Of a stretch of 64,000 nt of DNA, positions 28,487-64,000 are shown in pieces (positions within the stretch are counted from its first letter, which is position 1; each line of letters begins with the position of its first letter). The stretch spans positions 1-64,000 of the forward strand of contig NZ_WTVS01000009.1 in assembly GCF_012911005.2 (NCBI RefSeq), written 5' to 3'. The position numbers were made by a program, and so were the translations under genes. The notes under the pieces were generated by a model. That model was not told the origin of the DNA. It did no database searches and saw nothing but the letters and a program-made list of their open reading frames with translations. This stretch comes from Aromatoleum toluolicum (GTDB taxonomy: Bacteria; Pseudomonadota; Gammaproteobacteria; Burkholderiales; Rhodocyclaceae).

Positions 28487-28530
28487 GGCGACATACCGGG
28501 ATCGAACCGGTGACAACTGGAGCCACAATC
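28487..28530 (-). repeat. 3' end of a tRNA-His gene (attachment-site copy 1)
   Basis: On the minus strand this reads GATTGTGGCTCCAG, then TTGTCACCGGTTCGATCCC and GGTATGTCGCC: a His anticodon loop TTGTGGC (anticodon GTG), its 3' stem, the T arm and the 3' acceptor strand. The D arm, 5' acceptor strand and encoded CCA are missing, so it is not a working tRNA. The same core recurs at 32053 and begins again at 63991. The left flank differs from the other copies, which suggests it is the original chromosomal boundary. Confidence 0.8.
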
Positions 28531-28728
28531 ACCAGCCGTTTTGTTTTAAATCAGTAGGTTAAGTCATTTTCTGATCTACAAAACCCTGCCAACTACCCCC
28601 TTGAAAGCCGCATCAGGGCTGAAGTCCCAACCGTATTGTAGAACGATTTCAGCTAATGACATTGACTCAATCTTGCCGCCAGTCGATGCTGATAGTCCTT
28701 GCGCATGACAGCACTGTTCAACGCAGCC

Positions 28729-29235
28729 CTACGGCTCGGCACCTTCAGCAAACCGCTGCAGGCGTTGCCCCTCAGTGCGCGCCTCCGCCACCAACTGGCT
28801 CCAGTCGTCCGGAGGGTGGCCGCTGTCTAGCATCTTGCGGAACACGCGGTAGGCATCGTCGCTGCTCTCGTAGGCGCGCCTGGAGTCCTCGTCGTTAACC
28901 CACGCGAACACGATCATCTTGCTCGGCGCGTGATAGCGGAAGAACAGTCGGTACTGCTGAAAGAACTTGGCCCGGAACCAGTGCTTGTGCTCGTCGCCGA
29001 GGGTATTGCCTTGTCGATATTCGGGCCGTGTCGGGTCTTGCGGGATGACATCGAACGCCAACCGAGTGATCGCCGCCAGTCGCTTGGTGGCGTTCTTCTT
29101 CATGTAGCCGAGGGGGTCCTTTTGCTTGAATACCTCGACCTGCTGGGCCAAGGCTTCAAGTTGTGCCAGGAACAGCGGATGTGCGAAAACCGTCCAGCCG
29201 TGAATGACCAACGGTGCAGGCTTGCCCACGCTCAT
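28729..29235 (-). CDS. yhaV: type II toxin YhaV
   Basis: A 168-residue protein with the YhaV family pattern: WTVFAHPLFLAQLEALAQQV at the N-terminus, then PLGYMKKNATKRLAAI, the basic core DEHKHWFRAKFFQQYRLFFRYH, IVFAWVNDEDSRRAYESSDDAYRVF, and a helical C-terminus with GHPPDDW. YhaV is a RelE-like ribosome-dependent mRNA interferase held inactive by PrlF. The start overlaps the antitoxin stop by four bases. Length agrees with E. coli YhaV (154). Confidence 0.9.
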   Translation of the reverse strand: MSVGKPAPLVIHGWTVFAHPLFLAQLEALAQQVEVFKQKDPLGYMKKNATKRLAAITRLAFDVIPQDPTRPEYRQGNTLGDEHKHWFRAKFFQQYRLFFRYHAPSKMIVFAWVNDEDSRRAYESSDDAYRVFRKMLDSGHPPDDWSQLVAEARTEGQRLQRFAEGAEP

Positions 29236-29561
29236 TCATCGTCTGCCGACAGGGCGGCATCAAGATCGACCTCGATGCCGCCCGTCAGCGATTGGAGGCG
29301 CCGCACGAAGCTCGCATCGATGGTCTGCAGGCGCTCCGGATGGCTGGCGATGTCGTGGGCCAGGAAGTTCAAGAACTGGCCGAGCACTGGGTCATCCCCG
29401 TCCACGTTCTCGGCACGTGTCAACACGACCTCACCCCCGGGTCGGATCGTGTAGTGGATCTTGTCTCGCTTGCCCAGACGAAGGGCCCGGCGCACGGTTT
29501 CCGGCACCGTGGTTTGGTAGCGATCCGTCAGCGTGGATTCGACTTCCAGGATGGCGGGCAT
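29232..29561 (-). CDS. prlF: type II antitoxin PrlF/SohA (AbrB-fold)
   Basis: A 109-residue swapped-hairpin AbrB-type protein. The N-terminal DNA-binding part (LEVESTLTDRYQTTVPETVRRALRLGKRDKIHYTI) is standard; the C-terminal half (NFLAHDIASHPERLQTID) would bind YhaV. The start at 29561 is preferred to longer upstream frames because MPAILEVESTLT is the usual N-terminus and GGAGAGTCACC precedes it. It is the upstream gene of the pair and likely autorepresses. Confidence 0.88.
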   Translation of the reverse strand: MPAILEVESTLTDRYQTTVPETVRRALRLGKRDKIHYTIRPGGEVVLTRAENVDGDDPVLGQFLNFLAHDIASHPERLQTIDASFVRRLQSLTGGIEVDLDAALSADDE

Positions 29562-29967
29562 GGTGACTCTCCGGTCAACGAGGTGAATGTCCAGCATGGT
29601 AATGCAAACATCCACCCGTGGCAATGCACTTGAATTGTCTATGCGCAACCTCCTCCTGAAGCTGTCTTGCTCGTCGGGTCCGGTCCAGAAACAGCATCGG
29701 GTCGATCCCAGGCGCGCGCGCCGCTCGTGCCCCAGGCGGGAACGCGTTCCCTTCGGCAATGCGCTGTTCACAGTGCCGATGTCGGTGTGGCGGGCGAAAT
29801 TGTCGGCAAATTGACTGCACCCCGGCGCAGCGTCAATCGAGCGCGACGACCTGCATGAGTGAAGGCCCGCCCAGACGATCGGGACGACCTCATCATCGGC
29901 GCTGACCTGCGTCGCCGCCCGCCGGACACCCTCGCCCATAGTCGCGTGACTCCCGTCAGCCGGCCCC
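29562..29967. other. intergenic region, no recognised gene
   Basis: About 400 bases between the antitoxin start and the end of nnrU. Open frames on both strands show no family pattern. The first part must contain the toxin-antitoxin promoter. Confidence 0.4.
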
Positions 29968-30546
29968 TCACCCGAATGGCACCACCCCGAACAACACCCC
30001 GTGCAAGTGGCGCGCAAACACGAACCACACCCCCGCCCCGATCCCAACCGCCACCGCATCCCAAACCAGCGCACCTTCCCCCCGCACCACCCGCTGCGCC
30101 CGGTCGCGCCGGCGCGCGGCGAAGAAGCTCGCGATCGCCCACACCAGGAAGCAGCCGAACAACAGGAGGTCGGCGAGGGTGCCGTTGGCGAGCAGGTGCG
30201 CGAGCGCCCACAGCTGCACGCCGAGCACCATCGGATGGCCGAGCTTCGCCCGCAGTCGCGTGCCGGGCACGTAGGCGGAGGCGATCAGGACGAAGGCGGG
30301 CAGCGTCAGCACCGCGGCCAGGTGCCGCGTCCACAGCGGCGGCGCCCACAGCACGAGCGGGGCGAGCGGCGCCGCGCTGTAGCCCCACACAATCAGGCCG
30401 AGGCCGATCGCGGAGGCAAGCGAGTAGGCCAGCTTCCACTTCGCCAGGCCGTAGTGGGCGATGTACTGGGCGCGGTTGTCCTCGGCGAAGATGCGCGCCG
30501 AATGGGTGCTGAAGAACAGCAGCAGTCCGAGGATCAGGGCGGTCAT
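29968..30546 (-). CDS. NnrU-family membrane protein
   Basis: A 192-residue integral membrane protein with about five helices. Conserved NnrU features are [11 protein letters not shown] at the N-terminus, [18 protein letters not shown] in the middle with the conserved His-x-x-x-Asn, and a C-terminal helix. NnrU-like proteins occur with nitric-oxide-related genes and share the isoprenylcysteine methyltransferase-like fold; their reaction is unsettled. The start overlaps the MOSC stop by four bases, so both are translated as a unit. Confidence 0.85.
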
Positions 30547-31145
30547 GCGGGGTTCTCCGGGCGGATTGTGAGGGGCGCGTCGGCGCCGGGCGCCGCGGCC
30601 GCACGCGGCGCCGCTTCGCAGACGACCGCGGCGCCGATGCGCAGCACGCCGCCAATAAGGACGCGCGCGGCGACGCCGCCGTGGCCGCGCATCGCGTTGT
30701 AGCCGCCGGGGTCGAGCACGTCCTCCATACGCGAGCAGGGCTCGCAGACGCCGGTGAGCTCGAGCACGACCTCGGCGCCAATGCGCAGCACCAGCGGCTG
30801 GTCGCGGAACAGGGTGCGCGCGGCGAGCAGGTTCAGGCCGGAGACCACCAGGTTGCGCCGCAGCAGCGCCGGATCGACCTCGTCGCGGCCCGCCAGCGCC
30901 GCGATCGCCGCCAGATGCTCGGCCTGGATCAGGCTCAGCTGGCGCTTGCCGCCGCCACGGCCGGTGGCGGCGCAGTGATCCCCGGCAAGCCCGCGGCCGG
31001 CCAGCGCGCGCGCCTCGCCCACCGGCTGCGCCGCGGCCCGTCGCTCCGGGCGCAACAGGATCGCCTCGAGCCGGCCGGCGTGGGCGAAGCGGCGCGTCAG
31101 CGTGCGCAGGTCAACAGGCTCGGCAGCGGAACGGGCAGGCGGCAT
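30543..31145 (-). CDS. MOSC-domain protein
   Basis: A 200-residue protein if started at 31145 ([14 protein letters not shown]); a longer open frame is unlikely because it overlaps the divergent DUF504 gene. MOSC features are [12 protein letters not shown] near the start, [29 protein letters not shown] and the conserved cysteine in [14 protein letters not shown], followed by [14 protein letters not shown] proteins bind molybdenum cofactor sulfur and include YiiM/YcbX-type enzymes. Paired with NnrU, the substrate is unknown. Confidence 0.85.
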
Positions 31146-31218
31146 GGCGGTCAGTACGGATGAAACACGGGGACGCATCATCCTACCGCGCCTGCCGTCC
31201 CCCGCCCCAGCGCACGCC

Positions 31219-31506
31219 ATGATTCCGATCCACGCACTGCTCGCCCGCATCCGTTGGGACCCCGCCTTCGGCCGCGGCGAGTTCGTCATCGGCTATTACG
31301 ACCGCGTCACCCGGCGCATCGTCCGCGTGCCGCTGCGCCGGCTGACGTTCCCGGATCACGACCACTTCGCCTGCACCCTGGTCGATGACGAAGGCGAGAT
31401 CCGTCAGCTGCCTTTGCACCGCATCCGCGAAGTGCTCAAGTACGGCCGTCTCATCTGGCAGCGCGACGGCCCGCCCGGCGAAGCCCCGCACCGCCACCGG
31501 ACCTGA
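31219..31506 (+). CDS. DUF504 (MJ1316-type RNA-end recognition) protein
   Basis: A 95-residue protein that is essentially one DUF504 domain: [39 protein letters not shown], and [19 protein letters not shown]. This domain is proposed to recognise cyclic-phosphate RNA ends. The start at 31219 matches the domain boundary; no strong ribosome site is seen. It is transcribed away from the MOSC-NnrU pair. Confidence 0.8.
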
Positions 31507-31569
31507 ATTTTGCTCGGCCGCCAACCCAGAGTGGACTGGACGCGCGCGGCGGTTGTTTTGAGGGCGCAA

Positions 31570-31950
31570 TGCGATCGTGGACGAAGTCGATCGAGAATCC
31601 CTCCAGCCGGCAGCCCGGCGTTGCCGAGGAGGTAGCCGGAGACGCGACCGGCGGCGGCGGAGCTACTGCGCCGGTAGGAAAGGCCGGACTCGCCTGGGTC
31701 GCCCATGCCCAATTCGAAACGATCCACCCTTTCCGCAACGGCACGACCACACCGAACGCCTGCTGATCCCGCTGATGCTCGCCGCAGAGGGATTTCCGCC
31801 TCGGGGTGTGTCCGGTCCGCTGTACCGCAAAGCGGCACGACTACTTCGATGCCCTGCTGGAAGTGCAGTTGCGCACGCGGTAGGACGACGTTTTAATCGC
31901 CCACGAGGCAATCGCCGTTCTCGATCTTGCGTTACGCACAATCCAGTGCG
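31570..31950 (+). pseudogene. broken Fic-domain protein gene
   Basis: One frame encodes GKAGLAWVAHAQFETIHPFRNG, the start of the Fic motif HPFxxGNGR, then stops at TGA soon after without the GNGR. A second frame resumes with LLIPLMLAAEGFPPRGVSGPLYRKAARLL and a third with YFDALLEVQLRTR, both in the order expected after a Fic core. The catalytic motif is incomplete and at least two frame changes are present, so AMP-transfer activity is unlikely. Confidence 0.6.
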
Positions 31951-31968
31951 GAACCCTTTAAAAACAAT

Positions 31969-31992
31969 CGGGCCCGCTCATTGGCGGGCCCG
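31969..31992. terminator. hairpin at the right end of element A
   Basis: CGGGCCCGC (31969-31977) and GCGGGCCCG (31984-31992) form a perfect nine-base stem with loop TCATTG, followed by GTTTTGTAG. The same arrangement ends element B at 63902-63934. It is terminator-like and may shield the integrated element from outside transcription. Confidence 0.65.
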
Positions 31993-32052
31993 GTTTTGTA
32001 GATCGTTCTACAACCACTTTGGATACTTCGATTCGCTAACCACTTGATTTTA

Positions 32053-32100
32053 TGGGGCGACATACCGGGATCGAACCGGTGACAACTGGAGCCACAATCC
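32053..32100 (-). repeat. 3' end of a tRNA-His gene (attachment-site copy 2)
   Basis: Identical over 44 bases to the core at 28487-28530, and here the encoded CCA is present on the minus strand (TGTCGCCCCA). The 59 bases to its left match those left of the copy at 63991, and the 130 bases to its right resemble those right of the copy at 28487, as expected where two elements of one family meet. The D arm and 5' half of the tRNA are absent. Confidence 0.82.
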
Positions 32101-32433
32101 CCATCAGTTTTCTTATAAATCAGTCACTTGAGCGTGTTTTTAATCTACAATCTCCCCTCATCTGTGGCCTCGGAAGCCGCGTCAGCGCTCATGGCGCCAC
32201 AATTTTGTAGAACGGTTTCGGCGCCATCTTGCACGCGCTGAACAGATTCCCAAGTAGGCGCTTTCGAACCCGAATCGCGCACCCGACAAATCATTCTAGA
32301 CGCACAGCGCGCGATCGCAACCGATGCTCACCGTTCCACGTCGTGACGGAAGCGAGTGACAGCTTTGTGCCCAACCGAAGGGACTCGGCGCGCGCGTTGA
32401 GGATCCGAGAGCGAGCGCGCCGGCACGGTCGCA

Positions 32434-33774
32434 TTACAGGCTAGTGAGCCCGACTTCCCGACGGCTGCGAGTGCAGGTGTCGATGATCGAGTAGATCACC
32501 GCCTTGATCGGATCGATCAGGTCGGTGATATGGCTCACGCCCATGCCGCCGAGGCCATCGGAAAACTCCTCGGGCATGTCCTTGTCGCCGATCCACGGAT
32601 AGCCGACCCGCACCAGCGGCAGTCCGAGCTTGCAGATGGCCGCGGCATCGGTCTGGCCCGAAAGCTTGGGCGCACCCGGATAGGGCTGGCCGCCGTGGGT
32701 TTCGCTCCACGCGCGCTGCGCACTCTGCACGACCCAGTTCGACGGGTCGGTGCGGGAACCCGGCACGGCCGCGGTCATCTCCCACTCGGCGTCGATCTCG
32801 GGGTAACGGGCGATGATCGCGCGCATCGCGGCGCCGAACTCGGCCTCCACCGACGCGGTGCTTTGCTGCGGATTGGTGCGCATGTCGAGGTAGATCTCGG
32901 TCGCCGCCGCGGGGAAGGCCGGGCGCTCGGGCCAGCCGGCGCGCACGCTGGCGATCCAGCCTTCCGGGGCGATCTGGTCGGAGGTGTGCCGCCGCGTGTA
33001 TTCAGGCAGCCATTGCTCCAGTTCGAGGATCAGCCGCGCGGCCGGGACGATCGAGCTGCGGAAGCCGGGCGTTCCGCGCGGGATGCCCGAGTAGCCGAGC
33101 GAGCCCTTGACGGTGACCTTGAACCAGCACATCCCCGGATGCTCGTAATACACCTCGTTCCACGGCTTCAGGATGATGCCGAAGTCGGCCGTCACGCCGT
33201 TCATCATCATGTGTGAGACGCCGCTCGACAGCCCGTAGTGGTTGCGCTCCGGCACCACGACCGGCATGCCGCCGCCGGCAAAGGCCAGGATCAGGTCGCC
33301 CGTCAGCGGGATGCCCGCTTCGCATACCGCATTGACCGCCTCCGTTAGCGCCGCGACCATGCCTTTCGGATTGGACGCGCCGAGCCCGATTACGGTCTCG
33401 CCACGAGCCTGCGCGCGCGGTTTCATGTCGTCGCGCAGCGCCGGCCCGACCCAGGGCAGGTCGTGTTCCGGGTCGGCCTCGATGTGCGTGTCGATCGGCG
33501 CATATAGCATCAGCGCGGGACCGCTACCGTCGCCGCGGAGACGGCCGATCGCGTTGCCGGTCTGCGGATTGACCGGCTGGTAGGTGGCCTTGAGCCCCAT
33601 GCGCTCCATGTGGGCGGCCATGAATTCGCTCGCCGCGCGTTCGGCGCCGGTCGGGCTGTGGATGTCCACCAGTTGCATGTTGAGCTGCTTGAGGCGGGCC
33701 GCGTCGATCCGTGCGCAGGCCGCTTCGTACCAGGCGCGCTGTTGCGCGTCGAGTTCCTTGTGCTGGGTTGCCAT
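32434..33774 (-). CDS. M20-fold protein lacking the usual metal ligands
   Basis: A 446-residue protein with the overall order of M20 amidohydrolases (ArgE/DapE/carboxypeptidase G2). The catalytic positions are altered: the HxD motif reads PID at 93-95 (LYAPIDTH), the GxxDxKG motif reads GASNPKG at 132-138 with Asn for Asp, and the DEE stretch reads AGGGM at 166-170. The C-terminal TDAAAICKLGLPLVRVGYP block is kept. A two-metal mechanism therefore seems impossible. AAAGGAAG precedes the start at 33774. It is the last gene of a hydrolase-amidase-M20 operon; role unknown. Confidence 0.75.
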   Translation of the reverse strand: MATQHKELDAQQRAWYEAACARIDAARLKQLNMQLVDIHSPTGAERAASEFMAAHMERMGLKATYQPVNPQTGNAIGRLRGDGSGPALMLYAPIDTHIEADPEHDLPWVGPALRDDMKPRAQARGETVIGLGASNPKGMVAALTEAVNAVCEAGIPLTGDLILAFAGGGMPVVVPERNHYGLSSGVSHMMMNGVTADFGIILKPWNEVYYEHPGMCWFKVTVKGSLGYSGIPRGTPGFRSSIVPAARLILELEQWLPEYTRRHTSDQIAPEGWIASVRAGWPERPAFPAAATEIYLDMRTNPQQSTASVEAEFGAAMRAIIARYPEIDAEWEMTAAVPGSRTDPSNWVVQSAQRAWSETHGGQPYPGAPKLSGQTDAAAICKLGLPLVRVGYPWIGDKDMPEEFSDGLGGMGVSHITDLIDPIKAVIYSIIDTCTRSRREVGLTSL

Positions 33775-33785
33775 GGTTCTTCCTT

Positions 33786-35084
33786 TCAGTCGACGAAGGT
33801 CCATTCGGCCGAGCGCTCGGCCATCCACCACGCGATTTCGATCAGCCGGTCGTCGTCCCCGTGGCGGCCGACGACCTGCACGCCGAGCGGCAAGCGGTGA
33901 TCGCCCAAGCCGACCGGATAGGTGAGGCACGGGACGTGGAGGTAGGTCCAGATGCGGCTGAAGAGCGGGTCGCCGGTCGCATGCAGCCCGGCCGGCGCCT
34001 CGCCGATCGACGACGGCACCAGCAGCACGTCGACGCTCCGCATCAGGTCGGCCAGTTGCGCGCGGCAGCGGATGGCCAGTGCCTGCGCCTCGGTGATCGC
34101 CGCCTCGCCGCACGCCCTGCCCCGTTCGAGCAGCTCGCGCAGCTCGGGGCTCAGCAGCGCGCCCTGCTCCCGCCACTCGCGGTCCAGATGGTGCGCGCCT
34201 TCCGCCATGAAGATCAGCGTCTGCGCGTCGATCAGCGACTCGAAGTCTGCCGGCAGTTCGATCTCGACAAGTTCCGCGCCCGCGCTCGCCAAACGTTCGA
34301 CCGTACGCTCGTAGGCCAGCTGCATGTCCGCGTCGCCCTTCGGCCACATAGGCGTACGGCACACGCCAATGCGCGGCACCAACGCGGCCGGTGCGGTGAC
34401 CGCGCGTACCGAGCGCCGCGCCAGCACCTGCCGCGACAGCGAAAGATCCTCGAAGTCGCGTGCGAACACGCCAAGCGTGTCGAGGGACGGCGCCAGCGCG
34501 TGCAGGCCGCCGTAGTCGAAGTCGTCGAAGGTCGGCTTGTAGCCGAGAATGCCGTTGAAGCTCGCCGGCCGGATGATAGATCCGGCCGTCTGCGTGCCGA
34601 GCGACAACGGCGTATGGAAGTCCGCCACGGCGGCAGCCGATCCGCTCGACGAGCCGCCCGGCGTGTGCGCCGGGTTATGGGGATTCGCGGTCTTGCCGGG
34701 GTGATAGGTCGCGAACTCCGCGGTCACCGTCTTGCCGAGGATCACAGCCCCGGCCGCGCGCAGCTGCGCCACAGACGGCGCATCGTGCCCCGGCTGATGG
34801 CCGGCGTAGATCGGCGAGCCGTAGCCGGTGGGCATATCGGCGGTGTCGATGATGTCCTTCAGGCCTACCGGCACGCCATGCAGCGGGCCCGCCGGCGAAC
34901 GCCGGTCTGCCGCCCGTGCCTGGGCCAAGGCAGCGTCGGGATCGTGGTGGATCCAGGCGCCGACAACCGGCTCGCGCTCGGCGATGCGGAACAGCAGCGC
35001 CTCAGTGTAGCGGACCGAAGTAAGGTTTCCGTTTGCAATGCGGCGCGCCGCCTCCGACGCGCTGATCCTGATCAGATTGTCCAT
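33786..35084 (-). CDS. amidase-signature family hydrolase
   Basis: A 432-residue amidase. The Ser-Ser-Lys triad is visible: Lys in VPVGLKDIIDT near residue 80, the cis-Ser in GGSSSGSAAAVAD and the nucleophile in GTQTAGSIIRPA. The start at 35084 (MDNLIRISASEAARRIANG) has GGAGAG upstream. Twelve bases separate its stop from the M20-like gene. It would hydrolyse an amide of unknown structure; in this island, a side-chain amide or a ring-opened nitrogen heterocycle fits. Confidence 0.88.
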   Translation of the reverse strand: MDNLIRISASEAARRIANGNLTSVRYTEALLFRIAEREPVVGAWIHHDPDAALAQARAADRRSPAGPLHGVPVGLKDIIDTADMPTGYGSPIYAGHQPGHDAPSVAQLRAAGAVILGKTVTAEFATYHPGKTANPHNPAHTPGGSSSGSAAAVADFHTPLSLGTQTAGSIIRPASFNGILGYKPTFDDFDYGGLHALAPSLDTLGVFARDFEDLSLSRQVLARRSVRAVTAPAALVPRIGVCRTPMWPKGDADMQLAYERTVERLASAGAELVEIELPADFESLIDAQTLIFMAEGAHHLDREWREQGALLSPELRELLERGRACGEAAITEAQALAIRCRAQLADLMRSVDVLLVPSSIGEAPAGLHATGDPLFSRIWTYLHVPCLTYPVGLGDHRLPLGVQVVGRHGDDDRLIEIAWWMAERSAEWTFVD

Positions 35085-35144
35085 CTGCTTCACTCTCCGT
35101 GAGGTCGCGGCGCTGCGGCGCGGGGGCCGCAACGCGCCGCCGGC

Positions 35145-35996
35145 TTATTTGGCGAGGAAGTCCAGGACGACGCGGTCGTGCTCTTCGGGGCGCTCCCACT
35201 GGGGCCAGTGCGCCGCATCCTTGACGATATGCACGACCGAGTTCTGGATGACCTCGTGCATCGCAAACGCCGCTTCGGGGCCGGCGATCGGGTTCTTCTC
35301 CGTCCACAACAGCAGCGTCGGGGCCTTGATGCGCGCGAGGTCGTCGAGCTTGTAGAGGAAGTGCTCGCATTCGGGTGCGAACAGGCGCTCGTAGTAGCCG
35401 GTCAGCGATTCGCGCGTCGCGGCGTCCGACCACAGCTTCACGCGCAGGTCGATCAGCTCCTCGGTCACGCCACCGAGCGGCATCAGCCATTCGAGGCGCT
35501 TGCGGATCAGCTCGCGGCTCGGGTTGCGCAGCGCATTGAGCGAGGTCTCGCGCAGCGCGCTCAGATCCTCCGCCTTGTCGCTGCCGAGATTCATGCCCCA
35601 CGCGGTGTTCAGGATCAGCTTTTCGACGCGGTCGGGATGGTGGATGCCGAGGTCCATGACGATCCAGCCGCCGAGCGATTCGCCCTCGAAGCTCGCCTTC
35701 TCGATGCCCAGGTGATCCATCAGGTCGAGGATCTGGCCGGTGAACTGCTTGAGCCAGTTGCCCGACTGGAAGGCCGGCTTGGACGACATGCCGTGCCAGA
35801 TGAAGTCGGGCGCGATCACGCGGTTACGGGTGGCGAGGCGCGTCATGTTGCGCGCGTAGGTCTCGGCGTGTCCGCCGCCGCCATGGAACGCGAACAGCGC
35901 CGGGCCGGAACCGGCCTCGATGCAGCGGGTACGGTGTTTGCCCGTATCGTGGAAGCGGGTCTCGGTGCCCAGCAGGTCGATGTGGATCGTGCTCAT
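35145..35996 (-). CDS. alpha/beta hydrolase, meta-cleavage-product hydrolase-like
   Basis: A 283-residue alpha/beta hydrolase. The oxyanion region is FHGGGGHAETYARN, the nucleophile elbow FEGESLGGW, and the catalytic histidine lies in KDAAHWPQWERPEEH; the acid position is in LLLWTEKNPIAG, the WTxxNP form of a MhpC-like subgroup. The start at 35996 was chosen because the longer frame adds a low-complexity lysine-rich stretch. It diverges from the hydratase-aldolase operon and shares its promoter region, so it likely acts on a ring-cleavage product. A second hydrolase lies at 61462. Confidence 0.82.
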   Translation of the reverse strand: MSTIHIDLLGTETRFHDTGKHRTRCIEAGSGPALFAFHGGGGHAETYARNMTRLATRNRVIAPDFIWHGMSSKPAFQSGNWLKQFTGQILDLMDHLGIEKASFEGESLGGWIVMDLGIHHPDRVEKLILNTAWGMNLGSDKAEDLSALRETSLNALRNPSRELIRKRLEWLMPLGGVTEELIDLRVKLWSDAATRESLTGYYERLFAPECEHFLYKLDDLARIKAPTLLLWTEKNPIAGPEAAFAMHEVIQNSVVHIVKDAAHWPQWERPEEHDRVVLDFLAK

Positions 35997-36116
35997 AAAG
36001 CCCTCTTTGTCTCTGTCGGTTTTGTCTGCGGGACGGGGCTTCGTCGAGGCCTTGCCGCCCACTTTGCGTCGAGCCTTCGCCCGATTCGCGATTCAAGTTT
36101 CGCGTGTGTTTGCTTT

Positions 36117-36145
36117 AAAGTCAATTGACTTTTACACTAACTTCA
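36117..36145. promoter_or_regulatory. palindromic operator in the divergent meta-pathway promoter
   Basis: AAAGTCAATTGACTTT (36117-36132) is a perfect 16-base palindrome. The 29 bases from 36117 match 22 of 29 positions of a segment at 54732-54760, upstream of the ring dioxygenase operon. It lies between the hydrolase and hydratase genes, in markedly AT-rich DNA. Confidence 0.6.
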
Positions 36146-36199
36146 ACGTAAAACAACAACACAAACCAAAGACGTACCCACCACAGAGAGAGACCTCAC

Positions 36200-36982: not shown

Positions 36983-37013
36983 ATCTCCCGCCCCAATAGA
37001 GAAGGAATTCATC

Positions 37014-54620: not shown

Positions 54621-54731
54621 CGTTTTGTCTCCGTCTAAACCGCTTCTTGATCGATCACACCCATGCCGGTCGGCTCCCGCCCGGCGCCGGAAATGCCCGG
54701 CCACGACAAAAATATCGTTGATGATGAATTG

Positions 54732-55033: not shown

Positions 55034-55087
55034 CAAAACAACAAACAAAGTCATCCGCCCCGAGGAGACACCCCATGGAGACACCCC

Positions 55088-56056: not shown

Positions 56057-56228
56057 CCGAGGCACAGCCGCCACAAACGCAGTCCCCACAAAACCTCTCA
56101 CCTTCACTTTTCTGCACTAACTGGACAGGCGATGCACTGACCGCATATTCCCGACCAAGCGCTTGTCGCACATTGCGTTCGCCCTTTACGAAAAGGGCTC
56201 CCAACAACGCAAGACGGAGCGACAAGAA

Positions 56229-57113: not shown

Positions 57114-57122
57114 GGAGCGTCG

Positions 57123-58337
57123 ATGAAAATGCCAACCTCCTCGCACCGACCCTCGCATCGCACCACCCTCGTCGCCACGCTGATCGCCTCGGGCTGCTCA
57201 CTCGCTGGCTCGGCGCTCGCCACCCAGGGCACCTTCCCGCACGGCTACGGCGTGAAGTCGGAAGGCATGGGCGGCGCCGGCATCGCCCTCGCGCAGGACG
57301 GGCTTGCCGGCGCGACCAACCCGGCCGGGATGGTCGAGGTCGGCAATCGCCTGGACCTCGGCGCCGCCTTTCTGAAGGTGGACAACGGCTCCCGTTTTGG
57401 CAGCACACGCTTCGACGGCAGCGCCGACAAGAGTCTCTACGTGATCCCCCAGCTCGGCGCGAACCGCATGCTCGACGACGCGAGCGCGATCGGCCTGTCG
57501 GTGGTCGGCAACGGCGTCGGCACGGCCTACCGCCACAGCGACGACATCGGCGGCCTGCGCGGACCGCGGTCGGAACTGAAGCAGATGGTCGCGACCGCCT
57601 CGTACGCGCGCAAGCTCGACGAGGCCAACGCGATCGGCGCCGGGCTCGTGCTCGCCCGCCAGGTGCTGACGATCCACGGCCCCGGCGGACTGGGTTTACC
57701 CGAGGGGCGCGACGAATCCTACGGCGCCGGGGTCCGCCTCGGCTGGACCGGCCATCTCGGGTTCGGCCTGTCGCTCGGCGCCGCCTACGCGAGCCGGATC
57801 CGCATGTCACGCATGGACGAATTCCGGGGCCTGCTGGCCGAGCACGGCGATCTCGACGTGCCGGCGAACTACGGCGCCGGGATCGCCTGGCGCATCGGCG
57901 CGACGACGCTTGCCGTCGACTACCTGCGCATCGAGTGGAGCGACGTGCGCTCGCTAGGCAACCCGGGCGTCACGAGCGCCGACGGGCCGCCGGGCAGCCG
58001 CGAGGGCCCGGGCTTCGGCTGGCGCGACCAGTCGGTGTGGCGCGTGGGCATCGCACATGCCGTGACGGACGCACTGACGCTGCGTGCGGGCTACAACCAC
58101 GGCACCAAGCTCCTCGATCCGCGCGACGGCTTCCTCGGCGTCCTGGCGCCCTCGGCCAACCGGCGCCACGCGACGCTCGGCGCGAGCTATGCACTCGCGA
58201 AGGGCACCGAACTCTCCGTCGCCTACGCCCGCTCCTTCAAGGAGACCGTTCACGGGCAAGGCCCCGCACCGGACGGCATCACCGACCTGTACATGGGCCA
58301 GCACTGGCTGTCGGTCGCATACGGGGTGCGCTTCTGA
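57123..58337 (+). CDS. FadL/TodX-family outer-membrane hydrophobic-compound channel
   Basis: A 404-residue barrel protein of the OmpP1/FadL family. A signal peptide (LIASGCSLAGSALA) precedes the N-terminal hatch: GYGVKSEGMGGAGIALAQD and TNPAGM, the conserved NPA element of the plug. Strand-like segments alternate to a terminal Phe (VAYGVRF). FadL relatives such as TodX and StyE admit monoaromatic hydrocarbons by lateral diffusion. The start follows the StyA-like stop by nine bases; the TTG/ATG choice is not critical. Confidence 0.88.
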   Translation: MKMPTSSHRPSHRTTLVATLIASGCSLAGSALATQGTFPHGYGVKSEGMGGAGIALAQDGLAGATNPAGMVEVGNRLDLGAAFLKVDNGSRFGSTRFDGSADKSLYVIPQLGANRMLDDASAIGLSVVGNGVGTAYRHSDDIGGLRGPRSELKQMVATASYARKLDEANAIGAGLVLARQVLTIHGPGGLGLPEGRDESYGAGVRLGWTGHLGFGLSLGAAYASRIRMSRMDEFRGLLAEHGDLDVPANYGAGIAWRIGATTLAVDYLRIEWSDVRSLGNPGVTSADGPPGSREGPGFGWRDQSVWRVGIAHAVTDALTLRAGYNHGTKLLDPRDGFLGVLAPSANRRHATLGASYALAKGTELSVAYARSFKETVHGQGPAPDGITDLYMGQHWLSVAYGVRF

Positions 58338-58360
58338 GCGCCCGCAAGGAGAATCCGGCC

Positions 58361-58875
58361 ATGATCGACACCCTGGAACTACGCCAGGCGCTCGGGCAGT
58401 TCGCGACCGGCGTCACCATCGTCACGACGCTGGACGCCGACGCACGCCCGATCGGCGTCACCGCCAGCAGCTTCAACGCGGTCTCGCTGACGCCGCCGCT
58501 GATCCTGTGGAGCCTGGGCAAGAACGCTTTCAGCCACCCCGCGTTCGAAGCGGCGAGCCACTTCTGCGTGCATGTACTGAGCAGCGCGCAGCGCGAGCTG
58601 TCGGACCGCTTCGCGCGCGCCTCGGGCGCGAAATTCGAGGGCCTGGCACTCGGGCGCGGCTTCGGCGGAAGCCCGCTGCTGCCCGGCTGCGCGGCGACCT
58701 TCGAATGCGCGACCGAGCACCGCTACGACGGCGGTGACCACCTGATCCTCGTCGGACGCGTGCTCAGGCTCGCCACGTCGCCCGTCCGAGATCCGCTGCT
58801 CTTCTACCAGGGGCGCTATGCCGGGCTGGCCTTCCCACCCCTGTATGCGACGAGGCGAGCGCGACTGCCGCCTGA
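58361..58875 (+). pseudogene. StyB/HpaC-type flavin reductase with disrupted 3' end
   Basis: From 58361 (AAGGAGAATCCGGCC upstream) the frame encodes a complete flavin-reductase-like domain of about 160 residues: ALGQFATGVTIVTTLDA, GVTASSFNAVSLTPPLILWSL, HFCVHVLSSAQRELSDRFA and DHLILVGRVLRLATS to LLFYQGRYAGLAF. No stop codon follows in this frame until 59777-59779; the reading would run 300 residues through the antisense of the marR gene. In another frame TGA lies at 58873-58875, just before the terminator, so a one-base change near 58845 probably moved the frame. The domain may still work with a nonsense tail. Confidence 0.72.
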
Positions 58876-58883
58876 GAAGATCC

Positions 58884-58923
58884 CGTCCGGTCACCGCGGC
58901 AGCCGCCGGCCGGTGACCGGACG
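58884..58923. terminator. bidirectional terminator between convergent genes
   Basis: CGTCCGGTCACCG (58884-58896) and CGGTGACCGGACG (58911-58923) are perfect 13-base arms. It separates the flavin reductase gene from the end of the convergent marR-type gene at 58928. Confidence 0.75.
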
Positions 58924-58927
58924 CCCC

Positions 58928-59662
58928 TTACTCCGCGGACTTTGCAGCCGCCTTCGTGGCGGCTTTCGTCGATGCCTTGCCGGTCGCCTTGCTTGCCAAC
59001 CCTGCTGCCGCTTTCGTCGCCGCTTTCGTCGCCGCTTTCGCCGACGTCTTTGCCGGAGCCTTCGCCGGCGCTTTCACCGCCTTCTTCGCCTGCTCGTCCG
59101 TGACGCTGACATACGGGTTGTAGGTCGCCGACACCCGCATCGCCTCGTCGTAGACGCCGCTCAGCATGCTGATCAGCCGGCTCGCCTCGGACAACTTGCG
59201 GTCGATCGCCTCGATCGACTTCGTCTGCTCGGTCAGCACGAGCTGCCGGAAGTGCGCGTACTGGCTGATCAGCTCGCGTCCCTTGTCGGTCACGTCGTAG
59301 GTGAAGACCTTGCTCCGCCCCTCGCGGATCTTCACGACGAGCTTGTAGCCGACGAGTTTCCGCAGGCTGTACTGGATGTTCGTCACCGAGTCGGTATTCG
59401 TCTGCCGGGCCAGCAGGCCGACGGTCTTCGGCGTGTCCTGGAGCCCGATCACGTGCAGCAGGATCAGCTCCGAAAAGGACAGCTCGGCAAGCCCCGAGAT
59501 GTGCGCGATCTGCATGCAGTAGCGCTCGAAGGCCTGGAAGAAGCGCAGGACCGACCACTCGAACTCGGTGGTCACCGCCTCGTGGTGCGTCGCGCCAAGG
59601 TGCCAGACGCGCTGGGTAATCGGCGTCTTCGGTTGCGCAGAGCTCTCTTTTTCTTGGGTCAT
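58928..59662 (-). CDS. MarR-family regulator with a histone-H1-like Lys/Ala tail
   Basis: A 244-residue protein. Residues about 35-175 form a MarR-type winged helix: FSELILLHVIGLQDTPKTVGLLARQTN, TNIQYSLRKLVGYKLVVKI, and VFTYDVTDKGRELISQYA. The last 55 residues are AKKAVKAPAKAPAKTSAKAA-type repeats, like the H1-like tails of betaproteobacterial AlgR3/HctB-type proteins and unusual for MarR. The tail could bind DNA nonspecifically. A paralogue lies 53 bases upstream. Probable repressor of the island's catabolic promoters. Confidence 0.82.
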   Translation of the reverse strand: MTQEKESSAQPKTPITQRVWHLGATHHEAVTTEFEWSVLRFFQAFERYCMQIAHISGLAELSFSELILLHVIGLQDTPKTVGLLARQTNTDSVTNIQYSLRKLVGYKLVVKIREGRSKVFTYDVTDKGRELISQYAHFRQLVLTEQTKSIEAIDRKLSEASRLISMLSGVYDEAMRVSATYNPYVSVTDEQAKKAVKAPAKAPAKTSAKAATKAATKAAAGLASKATGKASTKAATKAAAKSAE

Positions 59663-59715
59663 GTTCGTTCAAGTCGCGGCCCGGGAAATGCCGGAGCCGA
59701 CTTCCAATGCAATGT

Positions 59716-60303
59716 CTATTCGTCGGACGACGTGTCGAGCGCCATGTATCCCGTCGACACCCGTCCCGCTTCGTCATAAAGGCCGATCAGCATGCTCACC
59801 GTCTTGGCCGTGAAGAGCAGCCGCGCCTCGCCGTTCTCGAGCTGCGCGATCTGCTCGATCAGCAACTGGCGGCGGATGTTGGCCACCTCGTCGCAGACCT
59901 GGCGCCCCTTGTCCGTGACTTCGACGTTCGAGTTCTTCCCCGCGCCGTCCTTCGCCTTCTGGACGAGCTTCAAGCCCATCAGCTTGCGCAGGCTGTACTG
60001 GATGTTCTGCACGTCGTCGCGGTTGAGCAGGTTCGCGATCATGCTCGCCGGCTTGGCCCGGTCGTGCAGGCGCACGATGTGGAGGATGGACATCTCCGGG
60101 ATGCTTACGGTTGCAAGACCCAGCATGTTGAGCGCCTGCCGGTTGTAGCGATCGAAGGCTTCATGCCAACGCAGCATCGCCCACTCGAACTCCGTCGTCG
60201 CCGCTTCGAGCGACGTGAGGGCCAGATGCCATCCGGTCACCGCGGGACCGACGTTGGCAAGGGTCGGCTCCTCCCCGGGAGTCCATTTTGCATTCACTGT
60301 CAT
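59716..60303 (-). CDS. MarR-family regulator, paralogue without tail
   Basis: A 195-residue winged-helix protein sharing with its neighbour TEFEWAMLRWHEAFDRY, SILHIVRLHDRAKPASMIANLLN, VQNIQYSLRKLMGLKLVQK and VTDKGRQV in the same order. It ends near residue 195 without the lysine-rich tail. The pair may form homo- or heterodimers. It lies 61 bases after the chorismate-synthase-like gene, in the same direction. Confidence 0.82.
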   Translation of the reverse strand: MTVNAKWTPGEEPTLANVGPAVTGWHLALTSLEAATTEFEWAMLRWHEAFDRYNRQALNMLGLATVSIPEMSILHIVRLHDRAKPASMIANLLNRDDVQNIQYSLRKLMGLKLVQKAKDGAGKNSNVEVTDKGRQVCDEVANIRRQLLIEQIAQLENGEARLLFTAKTVSMLIGLYDEAGRVSTGYMALDTSSDE

Positions 60304-60364
60304 GGGCTAAATTTCCTGATCTCAGACTCTGTCGAACGCCAGCGCGCCGGCCAATGGTAGCGAC

Positions 60365-61336
60365 TTAGCCCCCGCCTGTCAGTGCGCCGGCTTGCACTGC
60401 CCGCTCCCGCAGCATCACGTCCGCCAGCCCCAACCAGACCATCGCTTCGAGGATCGGCACCGCCCGGATCCCCACGCAGGGATCACGCTTGCCGCGCGTC
60501 AGCAGCACGGCCGGCCGCCCGGCCTTGTCGATCGTCCGGCGCGGCAGATGCACGCTGGGCGTCGGCTTGACCGCGACGCGGATCTGCAATGCGTCCTCCG
60601 CCTCGTCGAACTCCACCGCCTTCACCGCATTCACGCTCATCAGCGCCTTTCCGAGCAGGCCACGCCACGCTGGCGCCCGGTCTGCGAGCGCCTCCGGCAA
60701 AGCGAGCGTGAGGGCGACCTCCGCGCCGACGGAGTCGCCGCTCTCGCGATAATCGGCCAACAGGGCCTCCACTAGCGGCTCAAGCCGCGCATCGGCAACG
60801 AACCGCGGGCTCGCCGCGAGATCCGACGCGTCGCGGAAGGGCAGCTCCAGCGAGCCGATCCGGCTCAGCCATCCCCTGACCTCGACCCCGTAGCGCGGCC
60901 CCAGCCAGGCCGACGCGATCGCTCCCGCCGCCACCCGCACCGCCGTTTCCCGCGCCGACGCGCGCCCGCCGCCCCGATGGTCGTTGATGCCGTACTTGTG
61001 CCAGTACGTGTATTCCGCATGACCCGGCCGGAATAGCTGGTCGAGACGGCTGTAGTCGATCCAGCGCACGTCCCGGTTGCGGATCAGCAGCGCGATCGGA
61101 TGCCCGGTCGTGCGCCCCTCGAAGACGCCCGACAGGATCTCCACCTGATCGGGCTCGCGGCGCTGACCGAGGGCGGCGACTACGCGCGGCCGGCGCCGAT
61201 CGAGCGCCCGCTGGATGCCAGCCGCATCGATCGGCAGTCCCGGCGGGCAGCCGTCCACGATGCAACCGATTGCCGGGCCGTGGCTTTCGCCGAAGGACGT
61301 CACCCTGAAGAGCTTGCCAAAACTGTTTCCCGCCAT
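60365..61336 (-). CDS. chorismate synthase paralogue lacking a signature motif
   Basis: A 323-residue AroC homologue (usual length about 360). N-terminal signature MAGNSFGKLFRVTSFGESHG, FRPGHAEYTY and HRGGGRASARETAVRVAAGAI are kept, as is GKRDPCVGIRAVPILEAM. Between VNAVKAVEF (ending 243) and AVKPTPS (255-261), where normal enzymes have about 50 residues including NHAGGILGGISSGQ, only a 12-residue bridge remains. That motif contacts FMN and substrate, so chorismate synthesis is unlikely and a true aroC should exist elsewhere. It is first in a unit with the two marR genes, divergent from a ring-fission hydrolase. Confidence 0.75.
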   Translation of the reverse strand: MAGNSFGKLFRVTSFGESHGPAIGCIVDGCPPGLPIDAAGIQRALDRRRPRVVAALGQRREPDQVEILSGVFEGRTTGHPIALLIRNRDVRWIDYSRLDQLFRPGHAEYTYWHKYGINDHRGGGRASARETAVRVAAGAIASAWLGPRYGVEVRGWLSRIGSLELPFRDASDLAASPRFVADARLEPLVEALLADYRESGDSVGAEVALTLALPEALADRAPAWRGLLGKALMSVNAVKAVEFDEAEDALQIRVAVKPTPSVHLPRRTIDKAGRPAVLLTRGKRDPCVGIRAVPILEAMVWLGLADVMLRERAVQAGALTGGG

Positions 61337-61372
61337 GGATGCATTATGCCATGTCTTTTGATGTATTTTCTA

Positions 61373-61399
61373 TTGAATTTTAGTTGACAGTACATCAAC
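61373..61399. promoter_or_regulatory. operator-like repeats in the aroC-like/hydrolase divergent promoter
   Basis: TTGAATTTTAGTTGAC (61373-61388) resembles TTAATTTTAGTTG near 54752, and GTTGA-CAGTACA-TCAAC (61383-61399) has the same arms as the repeat at 54783-54799. The start codon of the hydrolase is 63 bases to the right and that of the aroC-like gene 37 bases to the left. Confidence 0.55.
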
Positions 61400-61461
61400 G
61401 AGACTAATAATCTCCACTCACCCCAGCACCCGACAAAGACGGAAGAACAGGAGACCCCGCC

Positions 61462-62292
61462 ATGGACCGCAATCCCGAAATCGCCAATCGCGTCACGATC
61501 AAGGGCATCACGACGAACTACCACGATCAGGGCAGCGGCTTTCCCGTCACGCTGCTGCACGGGTCCGGCGCCGGGGTCACCGCCTGGGCGAACTGGCGCG
61601 GCGCGATTCCCGAGCTGGCGACGAACCGACGCGTCATCGCGCCCGACCTCGTCGGCTTCGGCTACACCGACGCCCCCGCCGACATCGAATTCCGCCTCAT
61701 GGACACCTGGGTCGAGCAGATCATCGGCCTGCTCGATGCGCTCGACATCGAACGCACCGACCTGATCGGCAACTCCTTCGGCGGCACACTGAGCCTCGCG
61801 CTCGCAATCCGCCATCCGAAGCGCTTCCGCCGCATCGTCCTGATGGGCAGCGGCGGCCAGCCGTTCGAATTCACGCCCGAGCTCGATGCTCTGTGGGGTT
61901 ACACGCCCTCGCTCGACAACATGAAGCGCATCCTCGACATCATGGCCTTCGACCGCTCGATCGTGACCGACGAACTGGCCGAGATGCGCTACCGCGCGAC
62001 GGCCCGTCCCGGCGTGCAGGAGCGCTTCGAAAAGGTCTTTCCGCCGCCGCGGCAGCGTTGGGTCGACGCCCAGGTGATGGCGGACGAGGACCTCGCCGCC
62101 CTGCCCCACGAAGTGCTCGTGATCCACGGCCGCGACGACCGCGTCGTGCCGCTCGACGTCTCGCTCAGGCTCGCCGCCAAGATCGACCGCGCCCAGCTCC
62201 ATGTCTTCGGGCGCTGCGGCCACTGGACGCAGATCGAGCACGGCGCCCGCTTCCTGCAGCTGGTGAAGAACTTCCTCGACGAAGCCGAATGA
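61462..62292 (+). CDS. meta-cleavage product hydrolase (DmpD/XylF/TodF type)
   Basis: A 276-residue alpha/beta hydrolase that splits 2-hydroxy-6-oxo-dienoates into 2-hydroxypentadienoate and an acid. Markers: HGSGAGVTAWANWR oxyanion region (33-46), nucleophile Ser105 in LIGNSFGGTLSLA, Asp in VIHGRDDRVVPLD and His in GRCGHWTQIEH. It is much closer to DmpD/XylF than the hydrolase at 35145 and is the best candidate for the main ring-fission step; its product feeds the hydratase at 36200. GAACAGGAGACCCCGCC is a clear ribosome site. Confidence 0.93.
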   Translation: MDRNPEIANRVTIKGITTNYHDQGSGFPVTLLHGSGAGVTAWANWRGAIPELATNRRVIAPDLVGFGYTDAPADIEFRLMDTWVEQIIGLLDALDIERTDLIGNSFGGTLSLALAIRHPKRFRRIVLMGSGGQPFEFTPELDALWGYTPSLDNMKRILDIMAFDRSIVTDELAEMRYRATARPGVQERFEKVFPPPRQRWVDAQVMADEDLAALPHEVLVIHGRDDRVVPLDVSLRLAAKIDRAQLHVFGRCGHWTQIEHGARFLQLVKNFLDEAE

Positions 62293-62311
62293 CCCGAACG
62301 GGAGCCGCGCC

Positions 62312-62896
62312 ATGAATCACGACATCGCACTGGACATCGCCATCGACCCGGCCGCTTCGGCGCATCTGAAACAGATGCTCGCAAAGCAGCCCGCCAACTG
62401 CGTCGGGGTACGCCTGTACGTCCTCCACCCCGGCACCTCGCTCGCCCATGCGGGGCTCGGCTATGCCCGCGAGGGCGAGCGTCCGCAGGAAACGCGGCGG
62501 CTGATCGACGAGCTCCCGCTGTGGGTCGACCCGGCTAACGTCTCCTACCTGCAGGGGGTGCGCATCACCTCGCAGAAGACCATGTCGGGCCACCAGCTGA
62601 AACTCGTCGCGCCGCACATCAAGCGCGCCATCGCACCGCCATCGGACGCACCGCTCGAACTTCAGCTCAGCCACTTCCTCGAAACCGAGGTCAATCCGCA
62701 CCTCGCCGAGCATCAGGGATCGGTCGTGCTGCACGGCATCGAGAACGGCGACACCGCCCTCCTCAAGTTTGGCGGCAGCTGCCACGGGTGCGGCAACGCG
62801 GACCTGACGCTGACCGAGTTCATCGCGGTAAAGATCCAAGAGCGATTTCCCGCGATCACCAAGGTGAATGCCCTGGCGACCATACATGCCGTCTGA
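62312..62896 (+). CDS. NfuA-like Fe-S cluster carrier (degenerate A-type + NifU domain)
   Basis: A 194-residue protein, the same size as E. coli NfuA. The N-terminal half is A-type-like but without its cysteine ligands (VRLYVLHPGTSLAHAGLGY); the C-terminal NifU domain has the CxxC pair in FGGSCHGCGNADLTLTEFI. NfuA delivers [4Fe-4S] clusters and helps repair. Being co-transcribed with a ring-fission hydrolase, it probably supports the Rieske oxygenase and its [2Fe-2S] reductase on this island, which is inference. Confidence 0.85.
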   Translation: MNHDIALDIAIDPAASAHLKQMLAKQPANCVGVRLYVLHPGTSLAHAGLGYAREGERPQETRRLIDELPLWVDPANVSYLQGVRITSQKTMSGHQLKLVAPHIKRAIAPPSDAPLELQLSHFLETEVNPHLAEHQGSVVLHGIENGDTALLKFGGSCHGCGNADLTLTEFIAVKIQERFPAITKVNALATIHAV

Positions 62897-63893
62897 AACC
62901 GTGCAGGAAAATCTCATCTCGCGCCTCGAACGCATTACCGCGCGGCTCGGCAACCTTCGCCGCAGACCTCAGCGACGCGCGACCGTCTCGCCGAAGGGGG
63001 CGTCTTCTTTTGGTGGGGCTGGAGCGGGACGGAAGCGTATCGACGTGGCTCGTGCAGCCGGACTCGTTTCTTGTCAGCTTCGATGAGCTGCGCAATGTCG
63101 ACAACCAGCACAAACTCGTCGAACGCAATACCCGGCAGTTCTTCGAGCGACGACCAGCGAACAACATATTGATTGATGCAACGTCGAACCGCCGTCACCT
63201 CGTCACCGAGCGGGCCGCCGACAACTGGAACACCACCGCGACGAAGATGTCGAACTGCGCCGAGGCTGTTGGCGCCGGTCCATTTTTGATCAGGAGTACC
63301 GGCTGAAAATGGCCGGGCGAGCTAGCCTTTTAGTTTTGAGGCAGCCGCGATCCGTCGAAACGCCCTGCTCAGTTTTTCGCCGGAATGCAGGACGTCATGT
63401 GATCAGTCATATGTACACATAGTGGCCGAAAGTGTGGGTCGAATTGGGCCGCGGAAAGCAGACAGTGGCGATTGGGGCGCAGGTACCGCTGAGAGCGAAG
63501 CGGCGCGATGGCGGTCCGAGGCACCGCGCCCATGATCGCTCTGGCGAGCATCTCGCCGACCAGAGCCCGCCCAGAGGCGATCACGGCCTCGAGTTCATCG
63601 GCGTCAGCGCACTCCTGCAAGCGCTGCGTGGTGCAACAAGACACCGAAACGGGGGCTGGGGTCACCGACATGCTCGTATACCCGGCGCGCCGGCGCCGCA
63701 TTGTCATTCCCGAAGAGGCACCCGACCCCGCGCAAGCCCATCTCGTCGCGACGACGGGGTGGGGAATGGATACCAAATCCGCCTTATGCGGCAATGTCGG
63801 GCGAATCGGGCCTGGATTTCACGCCCCCCTACCCCGCCCTGCACGACTCCACGTACGCCCTTGTCGGCCGTGGCACCCCAACCGCCATGAGCT
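62897..63893. other. about 1 kb without a recognised gene at the island's right end
   Basis: Open frames on both strands (for instance one encoding LVQPDSFLVSFDELRNVDNQH on the plus strand near 63050) have no start with a ribosome site and no family I recognise. The stretch with CGGTCCATTTTTGATCAGGAG and GTACCGGCTGAAAATGGCCG near 63280-63320 looks like insertion-sequence debris. No integrase is visible. Confidence 0.4.
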
Positions 63894-63901
63894 GACAAAA
63901 C

Positions 63902-63934
63902 AAAAGCGGCCCGCTCAGTGAGCGGGCCGCTTTT
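63902..63934. terminator. hairpin at the right end of element B
   Basis: AAAAGCGGCCCGCT (63902-63915) and AGCGGGCCGCTTTT (63921-63934) pair perfectly around CAGTG. Directly after it comes TTGTAGAACGTTCTACAA, itself a palindrome, and a 60-base stretch closely matching that left of the tRNA-His copy at 32053. Confidence 0.75.
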
Positions 63935-63990
63935 GTAGAACGTTCTACAATCACTTTGGATAGCCTGAACTGGCTAAGTCCTTGATTACT

Positions 63991-64000
63991 TGGGGCGACA
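63991..64000 (-). repeat. tRNA-His 3' terminus (attachment-site copy 3, cut by window end)
   Basis: TGGGGCGACA is the complement of TGTCGCCCCA, the 3' acceptor end with CCA seen in copy 2, preceded by the same left flank (CTTTGGATA...CTTGATTA). If the rest continues as in copy 2, this is either another remnant or the intact tRNA-His gene. Confidence 0.6.

Follow-up and report, generated by a model that had tools for sequence, protein, structure and literature searches.

Repeats and elements in the window

The window, 64,000 nucleotides long, comprises bases 1–64000 of the 116.6-kb contig C289 of an Aromatoleum-type genome. Three copies of a 44-base core (GGCGACATACC...CCACAATC) that corresponds to the 3′ half of tRNA-His start at 28487, 32056 and 63994 in a single orientation; with the 46-base tRNA end as the reference, the core sites are 28485, 32054 and 63992 (Table 1). 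A preliminary description had placed co-oriented copies at 28487, 32053 and 63991, which was right save that its coordinates were off by 0 to 3 bases. Copy 3, completed outside the window, has one mismatch, in its last base, and a further core with a one-base deletion lies at 113207 on C289. An exact repeat of 42 bases is far beyond chance. The genome contains ten cores in all, four on C289 and six on six other contigs. The core on contig C23 belongs to an intact tRNA-His(GTG) gene (C23:23416-23491, minus strand), which is adjoined by tRNA-Arg and tRNA-Pro. Such a gene had been proposed to lie beyond 64000; it exists, but on C23 and not just past that position on C289.

The cores delimit elements A and B in the window and element C at 63992-113207 on C289, so that the tandem arrangement first described as two elements consists of three complete ones on this contig. 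The left ends of A, B and C have 163-171 bp in common, core included, and the right ends 92-110 bp, in agreement with the flank relationships noted previously. At E 1e-5, no similarity among the three other than at their ends was found, and tandem duplication was rejected on this ground.

Bases 1-28484, in which ABC transporter and dehydrogenase-type genes were among 10 genes scanned, are probably the end of another element, because their last 556 bases recur in relative G002 with 90% identity and stop there at a core. An ARAGORN call of tRNA-SeC at 8530-8612 is probably false, since Rfam finds no RNA at gathering score anywhere in the window. Toxin-antitoxin genes were seen at left ends.

Table 1. 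Features of the window (positions on C289)
Feature	Coordinates	Strand	Remark
Probable right part of further element	1..28484		last 556 bases recur beside G002 core
Element A	28485..32053		3.57 kb, integrase-free
Core copy 1, tRNA-His 3′ half	28485..28530	-	TTGG replaces GGGG at the CCA end
IHF-like site, left end A (+18)	28549..28561	+	
Arm repeat TTGTAGA, left end A (+44)	28575..28581	-	
Arm repeat TTGTAGA, left end A (+105)	28636..28642	+	
YhaV toxin (PF11663), element A	28729..29235	-	
PrlF antitoxin (PF15937), element A	29232..29597	-	
NnrU, MOSC and MJ1316-domain genes, element A	29968..31506		
G+C-rich hairpin, right end A	31969..31992		possible terminator for tRNA strand
Arm repeat TTGTAGA, right end A (-58)	31996..32002	+	
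Arm repeat, inverted, right end A (-47)	32007..32013	-	
IHF-like site, right end A (-17)	32037..32049	-	
Element B	32054..63991		31.9 kb, integrase-free; cargo of aromatic meta-cleavage type
Core copy 2, tRNA-His 3′ half	32054..32099	-	0 mismatches to intact gene across 46 bases
IHF-like site, left end B (+18)	32118..32130	+	
Arm repeat, left end B (+44)	32144..32150	-	
Arm repeat, left end B (+105)	32205..32211	+	
2-Oxopent-4-enoate hydratase, acylating acetaldehyde dehydrogenase, 4-hydroxy-2-oxovalerate aldolase, element B	36200..38982	+	
Extradiol dioxygenase-like, reductase and Rieske ring-hydroxylase genes, element B	51285..54620	-	
Arm repeat, right end B (-59)	63933..63939	+	
Arm repeat, inverted, right end B (-48)	63944..63950	-	
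IHF-like site, right end B (-17)	63975..63987	-	
Core copy 3, tRNA-His 3′ half	63992..64000	-	first 9 bases; complete in contig to 64037

Strings of elements and integrases at tRNA-His

At least two core copies were found in 13 of 17 genomes of the genus and in 0 of 24 genomes outside it; a lone copy in a genome could simply be the tRNA gene itself. Three relatives, each assembled as one contig, have co-oriented strings that end at an intact tRNA-His and span 321 kb (G001), 713 kb (G009) and 203 kb (G011). Comparison with relatives, as had been suggested, yielded other islands at tRNA-His but no empty version of this exact site. A search for the far chromosomal boundary of the array, based on genes next to tRNA-His in Azoarcus taiwanensis, Thauera and others, gave no informative match.

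Of 12 genomes checked, 8 have a tyrosine integrase whose end is 75-90 bp away from the intact tRNA-His, and none was seen beside the gene in the other 4. These integrases form three families that are 27-38% identical. The earlier statement that no integrase is visible is accurate for the window, but an integrase is located next to the intact tRNA-His on C23, to which we infer that C289 is linked. Neither PF00589 and PF00239 nor the int-b/c/d profile matched C289, and TraI_2, PF02534 and TIGR03754 gave no match there either. At E 0.01, PF00589 did not list the int-c integrase of G004, whose coding region is split between frames, and therefore this profile can miss such integrases. A serine recombinase was rejected as the missing enzyme: PF00239 had no match on the core-bearing contigs of the genome under study or within the G001, G009 and G011 strings.

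Evidence for tandem integration at tRNA-His comes from the intact gene, the strings that end at it in relatives, the adjoining integrase and the conserved, attachment-type element ends. If existing tRNA fragments had instead undergone tandem duplication or homologous recombination, site-specific integration would not be needed; the core is long enough for homologous recombination and hybrid segments exist. Set against this are the lack of relationship among A, B and C save at their ends, the geometry of arm repeats and IHF-like sites, and the integrase adjoining tRNA-His, and we regard this origin as highly improbable. An integron-like system, in which one integrase on the tRNA side would take up and rearrange every element, was also considered. 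In G001, G009 and G011 one integrase does lie at one end of a string whose several other segments have none, but the tRNA-side integrase varies by genome and its arm class is unlike that of many segments, so that a system of this kind appears unlikely.

Structure of the element ends

The ends flanking the cores carry arm repeats at fixed distances together with IHF-like sites, the latter assigned with what we take to be the IHF consensus, and in both features they resemble lambda-type attachment sites. On this geometry, chance tRNA fragments were rejected. Arm motifs are specific to the integrase family and stand at set distances in each. With related sequences counted as independent and motifs picked after looking, all 14 of 14 arm columns were invariant in arm-b left ends (n = 11), compared with 56 of 115 when every column is counted (p 1.6e-5), 22 of 28 left ends had an IHF-like site between +17 and +19, against an expected 0.0004, and invariance of the right ends gave p 4e-4 with rows anchored on one arm and p 0.012 omitting that arm. 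By our own classing, arm class differed between the two ends in 5 of 14 outer segments and 1 of 4 tRNA-side elements. A terminator role for right ends is only suggestive, because a perfect stem of at least 9 bp occurs in just 22 of 41 and is shorter or absent in the others.

Some of this evidence bears on whether the integrase-free elements are decayed leftovers or a non-autonomous satellite lineage that has its own right-end type and uses the integrases of co-resident integrative and conjugative elements (ICEs). Among arm-b right ends (n = 16), the arm pair is inverted (-58/-47) in 12 and direct (-58/-39) in 4; of those with the direct pair, one accompanies int-b, two accompany int-b remnants and one accompanies neither. 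Left-end arm columns are invariant with no integrase in cis, the NnrU-MOSC-MJ1316 module of element A recurs, partly shortened, by right ends of the same type (type a) at three places in G009 and in G007, and open int-b genes are found in G011 and G002. These points favor a satellite lineage. Decay products also exist, however, as short C-terminal int-b remnants by cores in G012 and G002 (none was found in A or B); right-end invariance is weak once the anchoring arm is left out, the sequences are related, and the genome under study is without int-b (best match 30% identity). We treat a satellite lineage as a tentative possibility.

Conjugation genes and classes of element

The tRNA-side element of G012 encodes MobH, TraD and five ICE-class proteins, and TraI_2 and TraD are also present in the tRNA-side elements of G001, G009 and G011. 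As in an ICE, the tRNA-side element thus comes with a relaxase, a coupling protein and conjugation proteins, of the MobH/TraD class in these four genomes, and with a tyrosine integrase at an attachment site. The int-c element of G004 is not demonstrably an ICE because TraI_2 matches lie far from tRNA-His, and in the genome under study conjugation genes lie on C198, a contig not joined to C23 in the assembly. The first 51.6 kb of the tRNA-side element are 99.4% identical between G001 and G012, whereas the chromosomes beyond the tRNA are 90.8% identical (over only 848 bp) and the left neighbours of the element differ; by this comparison it appears to be one ICE that has spread between species.

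None of the 14 outer segments, A and B included, matched PF00589, PF00239, TraI_2, TraD or the int-b, int-c or int-d profile. A and B have attL and attR at their two ends (core, arms, IHF-like sites), with no integration genes within the families searched (PF00589, PF00239, int-b/c/d profile) and no transfer genes within those searched (TraI_2, PF02534, TIGR03754). The outer segments would thus fit cis-mobilizable elements (CIMEs), because both attachment sites are kept and no integrase or conjugation genes were found.

Proposed assembly of the array

The repeats are very probably attachment sites of an accretion array at tRNA-His, built by successive tyrosine-integrase insertions. Elements would have entered one after another by recombination, presumably in the anticodon-loop part of tRNA-His, each supplying a replacement tRNA 3′ half and its own flank. 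Earlier arrivals would be displaced from the gene by newer entrants. The tRNA-adjacent element, in the genomes where it was followed, has the make-up of an ICE and encodes both an integrase and conjugation genes. A and B could then leave only by an integrase acting in trans or as a block with the ICE; the TTGTAGA arms of outer elements match the int-b class, which would suit the route in trans. No excision or circular form was seen.

A broader reading is that tRNA-His serves as a genus-wide docking bay, at which integrase-free catabolic satellites with selected ends are loaded and unloaded in trans by changing ICE integrases of differing arm specificities. We consider this doubtful; if true, it would be a slow, large-scale counterpart of an integron made of ICE parts. 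The single tRNA locus would be one place where Aromatoleum-type pollutant degraders acquire and retain accessory genes, with stacked segments reaching 713 kb in one relative. Its attachment sites also form a natural series, since the core and the IHF-like sites stay the same and the arm motifs vary by integrase family, so that arm specificity, trans-mobilization of integrase-free elements and block excision are directly testable.

Relation to known systems

Tandem accretion is already known in bacteria, and what is new here is the size, the recurrence and the integrase-free ends. Accretion of CIMEs with ICEs and IMEs is treated in the cited text of PMC5704250, whose reference list includes Streptococcus ICESt1-related elements. 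Tandem elements and distantly related integrases of the same specificity are common to both; unlike the accretion described there, up to seven segments, 713 kb and four arm classes are gathered here at one tRNA-His, with catabolic cargo and in many genomes of one genus. The Dehalococcoides ssrA islands, in the text cited (PMC3146451), similarly comprise several tandem islands at one RNA gene, bordered by direct repeats of its 3′ end, with an integration module in about half (16/31) and pollutant-metabolism cargo. They differ in having a serine recombinase, a 20-bp repeat and repeats at most 100 kb from ssrA, and are described there as not encoding conjugation.

Among the papers searched, none mentioned Azoarcus, tRNA-His and a genomic island together. 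The paper on the CIB genome (Martin-Moldes 2015), cited for a genome island V in the relevant part of PMC6683785, could already include portions of the strings among its islands. The element ICEXTD from Azoarcus sp. CIB is likewise a catabolic ICE from the same bacterial group, but in the text cited (PMC9960961) it has the repeat TTCGATTCCCATCGCCCGCTCCA and an ICEclc-family core, and its attachment site is other than tRNA-His; identity of the island with ICEXTD is ruled out by this different repeat. The clc-like islands GI1-GI3 of Bordetella petrii, according to the portion of PMC2717098 cited, are adjacent ICEclc-type islands at a tRNA with aromatic-degradation cargo, as here, but use tRNA-Gly and highly related integrases; their excision, singly and in combinations, has been demonstrated.

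Anatomy of the array and its core copies

The anatomy of the array fits accretion of an ICE with cis-mobilizable elements (CIMEs), a process covered by the review PMC5704250. It resembles the ssrA islands of Dehalococcoides and GI1-GI3 of B. petrii, as outlined in PMC3146451 and PMC2717098, respectively. Identity with ICEXTD was ruled out, since the repeat given in PMC9960961 differs. Among the best matches listed in literature searches, no prior paper on such a tRNA-His array was found.

The preliminary description had placed a 44-base core, the 3′ half of tRNA-His, three times in one orientation in the window, and had called for an intact gene. All three copies were recovered, and a complete tRNA-His gene was located, on contig C23 beside tRNA-Arg and tRNA-Pro genes and not on C289 (116,643 bp; the window is its first 64 kb). 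A fourth copy lies farther along C289, so that elements A, B and C are each bordered by cores; the genome (6.16 Mb, 289 contigs) holds ten. A tRNA-SeC called by ARAGORN in the window is probably false and was unsupported by Rfam at the gathering score.

Coordinates of features in the A. toluolicum genome and in relatives (G004, G012, G014)
Feature	Location	Remark
Core copy 1	C289 28487	start
Core copy 2	C289 32056	start
Core copy 3	C289 63994	start; one mismatch
Core copy 4	C289 113207	
Complete tRNA-His gene	C23:23416-23491	minus strand
tRNA-SeC call	C289 8530-8612	
tRNA-His-like piece, ATCCAGTGC...	C289 31941-31955, 28386-28400	continuation of the core in the intact gene
YhaV/PrlF	C289 28729-29597	left end
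Fic plus PIN	C289 64888-66851	left end
HipA	C289 113505-114872	left end
Chorismate synthase-like gene	C289 60365-61336	323 aa
int-c coding region	G004 C1:3482623-3484660	divided between frames
Two inverted tyrosine recombinase gene sets	G012 C1:2989095-3000012	inside tRNA-side element
Tandem pair of complete tRNA-His genes	G014 C1:2562132, 2562306	174 bp apart

Core strings in relatives

An exact core scan of genome contigs returned 20 stretches from Aromatoleum, Azoarcus, Thauera and relatives. When 41 genomes were searched, the core was matched in 17/17 Aromatoleum-type genomes (our own included) and 3/24 others; in any of these genomes a lone match may be no more than the tRNA gene itself. 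At least two copies were present in 13/17 versus 0/24, the 13 including G014, though both its copies are complete tRNA genes. In relatives available as single contigs, co-oriented strings of cores terminated at an intact tRNA-His, with four partial copies over 321 kb in G001, seven over 713 kb in G009 and three over 203 kb, crossing the start of the record, in G011. ARAGORN detected no tRNA genes within the strings as retrieved from G009 and G001.

Integrases and the tRNA-side element

A tyrosine integrase gene ended 75-90 bp from the core in 8 of the 12 genomes with fetched tRNA-His, and belonged to family int-d (our genome, G001, G003, G009, G012), int-c (G004, G008) or int-b (G011), which are 27-38% identical to one another; none was found adjoining tRNA-His in G006, G007, G014 and G016. 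Integrase matches were additionally found close to cores in G002, G010 and G015, and remnants of the int-b C-terminus adjoined cores in G002 and G012. PF00589 confirmed int-d and int-b; int-c of G004 was absent from PF00589 matches at E 0.01. This copy may be broken, because its region runs across two frames.

The element adjoining the intact gene (tRNA-side element) encodes in G012 a MobH relaxase, TraD and five more ICE-class proteins. TraI_2 and TraD matches fell inside it in G001, G009, G011 and G012; in our genome they were on C198, which no contig connects to C23, and G004 had TraI_2 only, distant from tRNA-His. G001 and G012 have 132 of 216 kb of this element in common, in pieces of at least 1 kb, and its first 51.6 kb are 99.4% identical, while past the tRNA no more than 848 bp of the two chromosomes align, at 90.8% identity, and the neighbors on the left have different end families. 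This pattern is strong sequence evidence for movement of the element as one unit bordered by the core.

Element ends

Core sites in fetched DNA (n = 41; 13 complete tRNA-His genes and 28 partial copies) were examined; sequence to the right of a partial core was taken as the left end of the element that follows, and sequence to the left of a core as the right end of the element before it. Both kinds of end grouped into families conserved over ~90-190 bp in most pairs, with differing cargo, and each family had its own arm motif at fixed distances; integrases adjoined the motif of their own class. TTGTAGA (arm-b; background 0.02 per 220 bases of all fetched DNA) was at +44 (inverted) and +105 in left ends, and at -58 plus either -47 (inverted) or -39 (direct) in right ends. 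Other motifs were TTCGTAAG, TTGAAAA and GTCACGC. Arm columns were invariant (14/14) in arm-b left ends (n = 11, p 1.6e-5, excluding C46, where the end breaks near +92) and in 12 right ends with rows anchored on one arm (p 0.012 without the anchor arm).

IHF-type sequences were at +17 to +19 in 22/28 left ends, and 13/41 right ends had one, inverted, at -17 to -15; 35 of 51 exact matches in 1.86 Mb fell at these positions. Six left ends lacked one, among them every left end of the GTCACGC class (n = 3). The arm and IHF-type figures treat kin sequences as independent and thus overstate the case. Since the core in left ends is retained no farther than the anticodon loop, crossover there is suggested. 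The right ends of family a, 6/8 of family c and that of window copy 1 contain a tRNA-His-like (T)CCAGTGC piece, set 92-113 bp inward; among 400 random windows, at least 12/15 bases matched in 6, and in 3 of these all 15 did.

Outer segments and cargo

Segments farther out (n = 14; A, B and C on C289, three in G001, six in G009, two in G011) contained no PF00589, PF00239, TraI_2 or TraD match. An int-b/int-c/int-d profile, run on all open frames of at least 60 codons in fetched DNA, matched the tRNA-side integrases and nothing in outer segments; two further matches came from G004, where an out-of-frame piece lay at the integrase, and from G012, where a weak one (E 0.08) fell within the tRNA-side element. 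Both ends were of the same arm class in 9/14 outer segments, including all three on C289, and of unlike class in 5/14. A and B show the CIME features that were examined, making them candidate CIMEs.

Element A encodes a YhaV/PrlF pair and NnrU, MOSC and MJ1316-domain proteins; the latter module recurs, partly shortened, beside the same right-end type in G009 (three places) and G007. Element C encodes aldehyde dehydrogenases and an ABC peptide-type transporter, with Fic and PIN near its left end. First genes were scanned at 24 distinct left ends (4 on C289, 20 elsewhere); a clear toxin or antitoxin family was near 8 and lacking in 16 (two doubtful), a count made without a control. ParE/Phd and HI1420-type pairs occupied the same place in some relatives. 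Element B encodes a ring hydroxylase, reductase, extradiol dioxygenase-like and lower meta-cleavage enzymes, a CoA ligase, an amidase, and export and outer-membrane proteins. A chorismate synthase-like gene lies among these catabolic genes.
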